A stretch of DNA of 45,251 nucleotides. Source: Natronohydrobacter sp. GTDB lineage: Bacteria; Pseudomonadota; Alphaproteobacteria; Rhodobacterales; Rhodobacteraceae. The notes under the pieces were generated by a model that saw nothing but the letters and a program-made list of their open reading frames with translations, did not search any database and was not told where the DNA came from. This document shows, piece by piece, positions 42,622-45,251 of this stretch; position 1 is the first letter of the stretch; each line of letters starts with the position of its first letter. Position numbers and translations under genes: made by a program. The stretch is from positions 1-45,251 of the forward strand of contig JAFIEM010000015.1 of NCBI GenBank assembly GCA_020832555.1. Reading direction: 5' to 3'.

Positions 42622-42758
42622 TGCAAGGTCTCCGCGGCTGTGGCTGATCCCGAACTTTACCATAATTTGGAAGAATTATACCGTCTTCGAGCAGAAGGGG
42701 TGGAACATTGAAAGAACACCGCTTTCCCTTGTCCAATGCCCACGCTAGGATATGGCGC

Positions 42759-45137
42759 ATGAGCGATTTCAATACCGACTTACCCCTGTCCGCCCGCGCA
42801 ATGGCCGCGCGTCCTGCGCCCTATCTTGACGGTCTGAACCCTGCCCAGCGTCAGGCCGTCGAGACATTGGACGGCCCTGTGCTGATGCTGGCCGGTGCCG
42901 GCACTGGCAAGACCAAGGCGCTGACAGCCCGGATCGCGCATCTCTTGAACTCTGGCCGCGCCTACCCGTCGGGCATCCTTGCCGTGACCTTCACCAACAA
43001 AGCCGCGCGCGAGATGAAATTGCGCGTTGGCGGCTATCTGGGCGAGGCGGTCGAGGGCATGCCCTGGCTGGGCACCTTCCATTCGATCAGCGCGAAACTG
43101 CTGCGCCGCCATGCCGAACTGGTGGGGCTGAAATCATCCTTCACTATTCTCGACACGGATGATCAGATCCGCCTGCTCAAGCAACTGATCGCGGCATCCA
43201 ATATCGACGAGAAACGCTGGCCTGCGCGGCTACTTGCCTCGATCATCGACCAATGGAAGAACCGTGCCTGGCGGCCCGATCAGGTGCCAAGTTCCGAAGC
43301 CAGCGCCTTCAACAATCGCGGCACGGAACTCTATGCCGCCTATCAGGAGCGGCTGAAAACGCTCAATGCCTGCGATTTCGGGGATCTGCTGCTGCATTGC
43401 GTGACGATTTTCCAGAAACATGGCGACATTCTGGAAAGCTATCAGAAACGCTTTCGCTATATTCTGGTTGACGAGTATCAGGATACCAACGTTGCCCAAT
43501 ATCTCTGGCTGCGGCTCTTGGCCGAAGGGCACAAGAATATCTGCTGCGTGGGCGATGATGACCAGTCGATCTATGGCTGGCGTGGGGCGGAAGTGGGAAA
43601 TATCCTGCGGTTTGAACGCGATTTCCCCGGCGCGACTGTGGTGCGGCTGGAACAGAATTACCGCTCGACCCCGCATATCCTTGCGGCCGCATCTCAGGTG
43701 ATCGCAGGCAATGAGGACCGGTTGGGTAAAACCCTCTGGACTGAGGCGCGCGAGGGCGAGAAGGTCCGCCTGATCGGCCATTGGGATGGCGAAGAAGAAG
43801 CGCGCTGGATTGGCGAGCAGATCGAGGATCTGCAACGCGGCACCCGCGGATTGAACCCGTTCAGCCTCGACCAGATGGCGATTCTGGTGCGCGCAAGCCA
43901 CCAGATGCGCGCCTTCGAGGATCGGTTTCTGACCATCGGACTGCCGTATCGCGTGATCGGTGGTCCGCGCTTCTATGAGCGGATGGAGATTCGCGACGCG
44001 CTCGCCTATTTCCGCCTTGCGGTCAGCCCCGGCGATGACCTGGCCTTTGAGCGGATCGTGAACACCCCCAAACGCGGCCTTGGCGACAAGGCGCAGCAGA
44101 CAATCCAGAGAATCGCGCGCGCCAATGATCTGTCGCTGGTCGCAGGTGCGGCGCTGGCACTGGAACAGGGCGAAATCAAGGGCAAGGGCGCTGGCCAGTT
44201 GCGCGCGTTGATCGAGGGAATCGCGCGTTGGAACGCTGCAATCGGGACAACCGGTCTGGCAGAGGCCGAAGATGATCTGATCGAAGTGATCCGCCCCGAA
44301 AGTGCGGCCATCAACCATATCGAACTGGCCGAACAGATTCTGGAGGAGTCGGGCTATACAGAGATGTGGCTCAACGACAAGACGCCAGAGGCACCGGGGC
44401 GGCTGGACAACCTGAAAGAACTGATCAAGGCGCTGGAATCCTTTGAAAACCTGCAAGGGTTTCTCGAACATATCGCGCTGATCATGGAGAATGATTCGGA
44501 TGCGGGCGAGGCCAAGGTCAGCATCATGACCCTGCATGGTGCCAAGGGTCTGGAATTTCCCGCCGTCTTCCTGCCGGGATGGGAGGACGGGCTTTTCCCC
44601 TCACAGCGCTCGATGGACGAATCCGGGTTGAAGGGGCTGGAGGAAGAGCGCCGCCTTGCCTATGTCGGCATCACCCGCGCCGAACAGCTTTGCACGATCA
44701 GCTTTGCTGCAAACCGCCGCGTCTATGGGCAATGGCAGTCGCAGATGCCTTCGCGTTTTGTCGATGAATTGCCGGGGCAGCATGTCGAGGTGCTGACACC
44801 CCCCGGTCTTTATGGTGGCGGGAGTCCGGCAACAAGCACGATCGAAACTCGGGCCGAACGTGCCGATGTGTATAACTCGCCCGGTTGGCGTCGTTTGCAG
44901 GCTGCGAGCGCCCGACGGGTCAGCCAGCCACGCGAGGCCCGCGAAATGGTCATAGATGGCAGCGCGATCCCCGCATTTGAAATCGGGGCAAGAGTGTTTC
45001 ACCAGAAATTCGGCTATGGCAGCGTGGCTGCGGTCGAAGGTGACAAGCTGTTCATCGAATTTGAAAAATCCGGCGCGCGGCATATCGTGGCTAAATTCGT
45101 CGTTCCTGCCGCGCAAGCCGATGATGTGCCGTTCTGA
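42759..45137 (+). CDS. UvrD/PcrA family DNA helicase
   Basis: A 792-residue superfamily 1A 3'-5' helicase for nucleotide excision and mismatch repair. Motifs: Q-motif LNPAQRQAV, Walker A GAGTGKT (46-52), VTFTNKAAREM, Walker B LVDEYQDTN, GDDDQSIYGWRGAEVGN, QNYRS, and TLHGAKGLEFPAVFLPGWEDGLFP with VGITRAEQ. The C-terminal Tudor-like segment (VFHQKFGYGSVAAVEGDKLFIEF) is present as in PcrA/UvrD, and it contacts RNA polymerase in relatives. Start at ATG 42759 (MSDFNTDLPL) with AGGA eight bases upstream. Convergent with the small RNA at the edge. Confidence 0.95.
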   Translation: MSDFNTDLPLSARAMAARPAPYLDGLNPAQRQAVETLDGPVLMLAGAGTGKTKALTARIAHLLNSGRAYPSGILAVTFTNKAAREMKLRVGGYLGEAVEGMPWLGTFHSISAKLLRRHAELVGLKSSFTILDTDDQIRLLKQLIAASNIDEKRWPARLLASIIDQWKNRAWRPDQVPSSEASAFNNRGTELYAAYQERLKTLNACDFGDLLLHCVTIFQKHGDILESYQKRFRYILVDEYQDTNVAQYLWLRLLAEGHKNICCVGDDDQSIYGWRGAEVGNILRFERDFPGATVVRLEQNYRSTPHILAAASQVIAGNEDRLGKTLWTEAREGEKVRLIGHWDGEEEARWIGEQIEDLQRGTRGLNPFSLDQMAILVRASHQMRAFEDRFLTIGLPYRVIGGPRFYERMEIRDALAYFRLAVSPGDDLAFERIVNTPKRGLGDKAQQTIQRIARANDLSLVAGAALALEQGEIKGKGAGQLRALIEGIARWNAAIGTTGLAEAEDDLIEVIRPESAAINHIELAEQILEESGYTEMWLNDKTPEAPGRLDNLKELIKALESFENLQGFLEHIALIMENDSDAGEAKVSIMTLHGAKGLEFPAVFLPGWEDGLFPSQRSMDESGLKGLEEERRLAYVGITRAEQLCTISFAANRRVYGQWQSQMPSRFVDELPGQHVEVLTPPGLYGGGSPATSTIETRAERADVYNSPGWRRLQAASARRVSQPREAREMVIDGSAIPAFEIGARVFHQKFGYGSVAAVEGDKLFIEFEKSGARHIVAKFVVPAAQADDVPF

Positions 45138-45164: not shown

Positions 45165-45251
45165 ATAAAAAAGGCGACAGTCCCAGGGAGGAGGAGGGGA
45201 CTGCCGCCGATTTTGCAAGACCCCAGGGAGGAGGAGGGGGCCTTTGCAACT
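45165..45251 (-). ncRNA. CcsR/'cuckoo'-type small RNA with two anti-SD-loop hairpins (partial at the edge)
   Basis: On the minus strand two hairpins stand in tandem with the same 12-base loop, CUCCUCCUCCCU. The first (45247-45215) has a ten-pair stem GCAA(A)GGCCCC / GGGGUCUUGC with one bulged A; the second (45208-45173) has a 12-pair stem GGCGGCAGUCCC / GGGACUGUCGCC with one G-U. Six U residues follow the second, so it also acts as terminator. Stem-loops that display CCUCCUCCC, an anti-Shine-Dalgarno sequence, define the CcsR RNAs of Rhodobacter, which respond to oxidative and heat stress. The 5' end and any further copies lie beyond the window. Confidence 0.8.

Follow-up and report, generated by a model that had tools for sequence, protein, structure and literature searches.

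Two hairpins with one and the same loop stand at the very end of a contig of Natronohydrobacter sp., and they raise the question of which RNA they belong to, how much of it lies beyond the contig and what drives its transcription. The window, 45,251 nucleotides long, is the entire contig C123 (JAFIEM010000015.1) of a 3.9-Mb assembly in 238 contigs that is 86% complete. Folding the minus strand of its last 85 bases gave two successive hairpins, each with a 12-bp stem (Table 1). The stems differ in sequence, the loop, CUCCUCCUCCCU, is identical, and six U residues follow the second hairpin. The original prediction had described this arrangement, and it was seen again in both the fold and the minus-strand sequence. 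Shuffles averaged -25.2 kcal/mol (sd 3.16), compared with -40 kcal/mol for the two-hairpin fold (z -4.68), and none of 200 was as low. The U run is probably a Rho-independent terminator; a terminator scan of the array, which permits loops of at most 8 nt, called none. Across the whole assembly the exact loop 12-mer occurs three times, in the two array loops and at one isolated site on contig C65, against none for a reversed-pattern control.

Table 1. Array features and the convergent gene, in coordinates of the window
Feature	Position	Strand	Description	Basis
Hairpin A	45213..45249	-	12 bp, one bulged A, one G-U; loop CUCCUCCUCCCU at 45225-45236	fold, pair counts
Hairpin B (last)	45173..45208	-	12 bp, one G-U; loop CUCCUCCUCCCU at 45185-45196	fold, pair counts
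Six-U run directly 3' of hairpin B	45167..45172	-		sequence
Rfam CcsR1 (RF02791) match	45169..45250	-	48.0 bits, E 7.9e-11, below the gathering score of 65.3	
UvrD/PcrA-like helicase gene	42708..45137	+	convergent; ATG at 42753 is a possible start	

The contig stops two bases past the base of hairpin A, inside the array, and the upstream part is absent. By comparison with the arrays of relatives, hairpin A appears to be the fifth hairpin of six. Two MAG contigs break at one and the same position in the array, C123 at 45251 and L015 at its base 1. Tandem hairpins of this kind probably break short-read assembly.

At gathering thresholds, an Rfam search of the window called tRNA only and nothing at the array. 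When matches were ranked by E-value, CcsR1 came out best and ar14 (RF02344) next (44.2 bits, E 5.1e-7), both below their gathering scores, which for ar14 is 58.8. The Rfam CcsR model, which the original prediction had put forward as a check, is thus the best match and falls short of its own cut-off. The ar14 match is cut by the contig end, and the three-hairpin layout of ar14/NfeR1 was not found, the relatives having five to six exact loops behind a DUF1127 gene. CcsR1 was matched at E <= 0.001 in 36 of 60 relatives' genomes (our own included), among them 34 of the 36 within the genus, with none in G015 and G019; the gathering score was reached in none of the 60. We take these scores to reflect a single family scored by a strict model, the cut-off not being a defining feature. 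The identity as a CcsR/cuckoo RNA, claimed from the start, is upheld by the best Rfam match, by DUF1127 and further hairpins in relatives and by covariation. The array itself stands as a further member, in Natronohydrobacter sp., of an already known family.

In published accounts the CCUCCUCCC loops are described as anti-Shine-Dalgarno motifs, kin to an R. sphaeroides sRNA, and the DUF1127-CcsR arrangement as the 'CIN1' locus (PMC3927594, PMC10746234, PMC10253847). As described there, CcsR1-4 with ccaF1/RSP_6037 of R. sphaeroides (CIN1/cuckoo) have the same tandem CCUCCUCCC hairpins right after a short DUF1127 gene, with a terminator at the end; by the published description there are four CcsRs in that species, whereas here there are about three hairpin pairs. 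The described ar14/NfeR1 of Sinorhizobium meliloti is alike in its CCUCCUCCC anti-Shine-Dalgarno loops, set in stems of free sequence, and in an LTTR (LsrB) box that immediately precedes a sigma-70 promoter. It differs in having three hairpins, in belonging to Rhizobiales and in that DUF1127 goes unmentioned in PMC10746234.

The missing upstream part can be viewed in the relatives. From the CcsR1 matches we took 30 same-genus loci (L004-L033, the window being L017), in most cases a single one from each genome; further matches from these genomes were left out, as were G005, G024, G027 and G034. In two of the 30, the window and L015, a contig end interrupts the array. Among the 28 with upstream DNA, a DUF1127 frame ends about 20 nt before the first loop in 25, and the remaining three (L004, L006 and L029) are isolated two-hairpin loci with no match to DUF1127 or to the uvrD-like gene. 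The 25 DUF1127 loci hold six exact loops in 21 cases and five in four, in agreement with the suggestion that more hairpin copies might follow. The DUF1127 protein of L018 scores 52.5 bits against Pfam DUF1127. The uvrD-like gene, whose product matches Pfam UvrD-helicase (298 bits) and UvrD_C (218 bits), lies convergent beside the array in 23 of the 30 loci (window included) and served as a synteny anchor.

In our own genome the 11 initial codons of a DUF1127 gene, encoding MAHYAENISIG, stand at the start of contig C11 on a strand that runs off the contig, and these residues are identical to the start of the L018 protein. A 1533-base stretch of L018 placed on our genome matched the last 34 bases of C123 and C11 from its base 1, leaving 405 bases of L018 unmatched between the two; a third match, on C146, covers just 27 bases. 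Hairpins 1-4 and the remainder of the DUF1127 gene would lie in this interval between C123 and C11. A DUF1127 gene upstream had been predicted beyond the right edge of the window. The relatives and the gene start on C11 argue for it, with the link between C123 and C11 unbridged in this genome. Two other DUF1127 matches, on C231 (at the contig edge) and C84, were rejected as partner gene, with no loops in the flanking DNA examined; C84 has no box (see below) within 4 mismatches in 500 nt upstream, and C231 has 8 nt upstream only.

Selection on the structure had been asserted from the single sequence, which did not show it; the genus loci support it. We counted pairs in 27 aligned genus loci, 26 of them distinct, over 24 base pairs. 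Cells were paired in 95.9% of cases, against 37.9-54.4% in slid controls and 92.6% in shuffles, and none of 500 shuffles reached the observed value. Seven of the 24 pairs had changed on both sides, against none or one in slid controls and a mean of 4.3 in shuffles; 24 of 500 shuffles reach seven, and the difference from shuffles is only modest. Counted as cells, both-sided changes numbered 21 against 6.5 in shuffles (0/500 reach 21). Further pair types (16) gave no excess, since 348 of 500 shuffles reach that number. Helix 1 was the weaker, paired in 91.8% of cells, with helix 2 paired in 100% across the 26 distinct sequences; five pairs of hairpin B showed both-sided changes. RNAalifold independently predicts both hairpins, with the outer part of helix 1 shorter. 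Covariation across the genus therefore supports the stems.

Similar arrays extend beyond the genus. We inspected the best 80 of at least 586 uvrD-anchored loci, counting loops within 3 kb downstream of uvrD, and found them in 57, none on the uvrD strand. These comprise 10 of 10 close relatives (Natronohydrobacter, Roseinatronobacter and other Rhodobacteraceae) and 47 of 70 further loci, the 47 being nearly all Rhodobacterales by title. Loci L039-L048 repeat some other genus loci (L039 and L015, for example, are one contig) and so are not independent. A DUF1127 match was present in 50 of the 57. Of 369 loops folded, 348 were unpaired within a hairpin of at least 4 bp, compared with 41 of 369 when the flanks were shuffled; two of the 371 loops, near locus ends, were left out of this test. 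Exact loops number 2 to 16 per locus, some arrays being cut by contig ends. For the box test below we used the 42 of the 47 wider loop-bearing loci with DUF1127, leaving out L055, L060, L071, L074 and L078; in 38 of these 42 the first loop stands 22-107 bases beyond the end of the DUF1127 frame. Four Sulfitobacter/Roseobacter loci (L109, L110, L116 and L118) have two to four loops, then DUF1127, then one loop. Another pattern, two loops 22-50 apart, was tried as a class-wide measure of distribution and, counted by eye, found in 19 of 385 genomes (our own included); we dropped it because the reversed control matches 14 of 385.

What lies upstream of the DUF1127 gene is strongly conserved within the genus. 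The promoters share one layout, a GCATRGCNGCRWTG-type box, 12 nt, TTG[T/C]GC, 16 nt and TAT[C/T]TT, in 26 of 26 cases (25 relatives and C11). The 25-promoter alignment was made without L010, which was seen separately and has the same layout; in 25 promoters the ATG follows TAT[C/T]TT by 44-62 nt. The conserved hexamers, TTGYGC-16-TATYTT, look sigma-70-like. The box resembles two published sites, the VtlR motif CAATGCAGCCATGCA given in PMC12595884 and the LsrB box TGCA-N6-GCAT described in the NfeR1 promoter.

To put numbers on this likeness, we scored the VtlR motif, which was picked after the genus box had been seen. At up to 3 mismatches it occurs in 21 of 25 genus promoters (3.6% of shuffles) and in 37 of 42 wider Rhodobacterales loci (3.8% of shuffles), some of which had already been scanned with the genus box; a real-sequence control gave 2 of 420 windows from 21 loop-free loci. 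Four genus promoters, our own on C11 among them, stand at 4 mismatches, a level reached by 19.8% of shuffles. As a group the promoters thus carry a box like the LsrB/VtlR site, and C11 taken alone is indistinguishable from shuffles by this motif. The five wider misses (L096, L109, L110, L116 and L118) were rescanned, and four have the box 108-112 nt before their first loops and L096 has none, which brings the recount to 41 of 42 over a longer stretch, without a matched control. Both L109 and L118 have a second box before DUF1127. What appears to be new here is this box resembling the LsrB/VtlR site in CcsR promoters, in the 26 of 26 genus layout and in wider Rhodobacterales.

The genus alignment contains a second conserved, inverted-repeat-like element, TTACCTAGSGTAAAC, just upstream of the box (C11:1-260, L036). 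At the isolated loci L004, L006 and L029 we observed GCCGCAWTGCAGCA-like letters, shared with the genus box, 70-80 nt upstream of the first loop (at about 1440-1600). Against the VtlR motif these three reach 4 mismatches only, no better than shuffles (15%). Probably they represent additional sRNA genes controlled in the same way, and their two-hairpin layout is nearer to that of ar14/NfeR1 than the DUF1127 arrays are.

A search of our own genome with the degenerate genus box GCATRGCNGCAWTG found three places, the C11 promoter, C100 and C161, compared with one for the reversed control. The copy on C100 lies inside an OmpA-domain gene and is therefore taken as chance. The C161 copy, the only other intergenic exact one, was unknown before this search and so provides an independent check. 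It lies between the end of a LysR-type regulator (LTTR) gene and a short terminator-ended unit, the whole group spanning C161:7357-8456 (L128:1367-2466); it has 4 mismatches to the VtlR motif, with letters as in L130. The regulator has 297 aa and matches Pfam HTH_1 and LysR_substrate. The short unit matches Rfam SorY (54.8 bits, E 1.5e-9), SorX (43.2) and suhB (29.2), all below gathering.

Among solved structures the best match to the regulator was 9hh1 at 227 bits, the next scoring 94.6; 9HH1 is described as the LsrB structure of A. tumefaciens (PMC11975290). In the reverse search with LsrB, the C161 regulator was first of 27 matches in our genome (226.9 against 120.1 bits, 40% identity). The gene is present in 58 of 61 family genomes, with one match each, and in 34 of the 36 genomes of the genus (none in G011 and G026 at E <= 1e-40), where it is split over two contigs in G012 and there are two in G027. 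It is therefore the best match to LsrB in both directions, in single copy and with an AbcR-like sRNA adjoining. The gene trxB, which PMC7486931 describes as directly upstream of vtlR in an order well conserved in Alphaproteobacteria, has its only match above the cut-off on C152, and the regulator is on C161. A same-strand gene upstream of the regulator was also sought, and the long frames found there were read as antisense of a divergent gene. We call the regulator LsrB-like, the proposed orthology resting on scores and on the neighbouring sRNA. LsrB has been stated to be unique to Rhizobiales (PMC11975290), and VtlR has been called conserved in the class Alphaproteobacteria (PMC7486931).

The neighbourhood of this gene is itself conserved. 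ACCTCCCTG lies 3' of it in 30 of 30 genus loci examined, and the degenerate box occurs in many SorY promoters of the genus, for example as GCATACCGGCAATG. Outside the genus we took the best-scoring 29 of 57 other genomes with the gene. ACCTCCC lies downstream of it in 28 of these 29 loci from other Rhodobacteraceae genera, and the genus box at up to 2 mismatches lies beside it in 23, compared with 11 of 600 control windows. Rfam, run on 10 of the 29, gave SorY or SorX at nine and none at L162.

From the published descriptions, the LsrB/VtlR regulon of Rhizobiales (AbcR1, AbcR2, NfeR1 and DUF1127 genes) is alike in that the regulator gene adjoins a CU-rich sRNA that has a suhB-like score, the box is similar, and there are sRNA and DUF1127 targets. 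The system here differs in being found in Rhodobacteraceae, in the absence of trxB beside the regulator, in a neighbouring sRNA that matches SorY/SorX and in a DUF1127 gene that carries the CcsR array. SorY and SorX (RF02651, RF02784) are singlet-oxygen sRNAs of R. sphaeroides; the C161 sRNA resembles them and differs in scoring below their gathering values (111 and 46.6) and in its position next to an LsrB-like regulator gene, where the box resembles the one at the CcsR operon.

Regulator step aside, we consider it quite probable that a CcsR/cuckoo (CIN1) operon, acting through anti-Shine-Dalgarno loops, has its 3' end in this array. The operon would run from its promoter through a DUF1127 gene of about 70 aa and about six tandem anti-Shine-Dalgarno hairpins, to stop close to where the convergent uvrD-like gene ends. 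By analogy with published relatives, the transcript would be cut into small RNAs by RNase E, helped by the DUF1127 protein, and the CCUCCUCCC loops would base-pair to ribosome binding sites and prevent translation during stress. CcsR1-4 have been reported to target flhR. Transcription of DUF1127-CcsR may be driven by the LsrB/VtlR-type LysR regulator, which would also drive the SorY-like sRNA beside its own gene. That one such regulator serves both is, on the sequences compared, about an even chance. We hold this step lower because trxB is not adjacent and our own promoter is at 4 mismatches, and 6 of the 29 other-genus regions beside the regulator, which have no genus box at up to 2 mismatches, also count against it, as does the regulator's identity to LsrB of only 40%.

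One alternative is an ordinary CcsR operon under RpoHI/RpoHII, as is reported for the ccaF1-CcsR promoter of R. sphaeroides (PMC10253847), in which case some other regulator would act on the promoter block and the resemblance to the VtlR/LsrB site would be convergent, GCA-rich dyads being common. The second, TTACCTAGSGTAAAC-like element, to which no factor is assigned, and the four mismatches of the C11 promoter fit this account, which we regard as possible if somewhat doubtful, because the hexamers here look sigma-70-like and the box, fixed 12 nt upstream of them, recurs beside the LsrB-like gene and its neighbouring sRNA. The loops might also act mainly as a decoy, titrating many mRNAs or a protein (such as Hfq or the DUF1127 protein) and not silencing chosen targets. 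The number of exact loops ranges between 2 and 16 among loci, their letters are constant among differing stems and CcaF1 is reported to bind RNA (PMC10253847), all of which would suit such a role; in NfeR1, however, mutating the loops is reported to abolish silencing of ntrB, a discrete target (PMC10746234), and we think a decoy unlikely.

It is very improbable that the hairpins are a mere terminator or 3' stabiliser of the convergent genes, with no sRNA function. Hairpin B and its six U do end about 30 nt beyond the uvrD-like stop codon, but terminator loops are free to vary and this one is nearly invariant, it comes in many tandem copies, and in three genus genomes two-hairpin copies lie away from the uvrD gene. 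An assembly artefact at the contig end, which the break of C123 within the array and the start of L015 at the same place might suggest, has a negligible chance of being correct: it is refuted by relatives in which the array is internal to long contigs, such as G031:C29 (751 kb) and G020:C1 (3.48 Mb).

Under the preferred reading of a CcsR operon with an LsrB-like activator, the control region would offer a candidate regulator, along with a 14-bp site, for a stress sRNA operon whose control has until now been ascribed to RpoH, and co-regulation of CcsR and SorY would be predicted. Extended to the family, the reading becomes a Rhodobacteraceae module in which one LsrB/VtlR-type LysR regulator would activate a SorY-like sRNA and the distant DUF1127-CcsR operon through a shared box. 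The CcsR, NfeR1, AbcR and SorY sRNAs and the DUF1127 proteins would then be branches of one ancestral alphaproteobacterial regulon, not confined to Rhizobiales, with array length (2-16 loops) as a varying dose. We regard this wider proposal as evenly poised; if true, it would join the anti-Shine-Dalgarno sRNAs of Rhizobiales and Rhodobacterales in one regulon. Among open-licence papers we found none pairing LsrB with CcsR, or CcsR with LysR, which is weak evidence of novelty.

As to targets, a list drawn from GGGAGGAGG-N3-10-ATG in our own genome gave 7 sites against 1 in the control, and was set aside because strong Shine-Dalgarno sites match any anti-Shine-Dalgarno loop. The isolated site on C65 (C65:15927-15938, L001:1501-1512) is the sole other perfect complement of the 12-nt loop in the assembly. 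The ATG of an open frame lies 46 nt downstream of it; this frame runs for at least 484 aa and gave no match in a Pfam search at 0.001. The site may be a target or may have arisen by chance. Among the wider loci the longest arrays hold 16 (L084, Pseudooceanicola nanhaiensis), 14 (L095) and 13 (L083) exact CCTCCTCCC loops.
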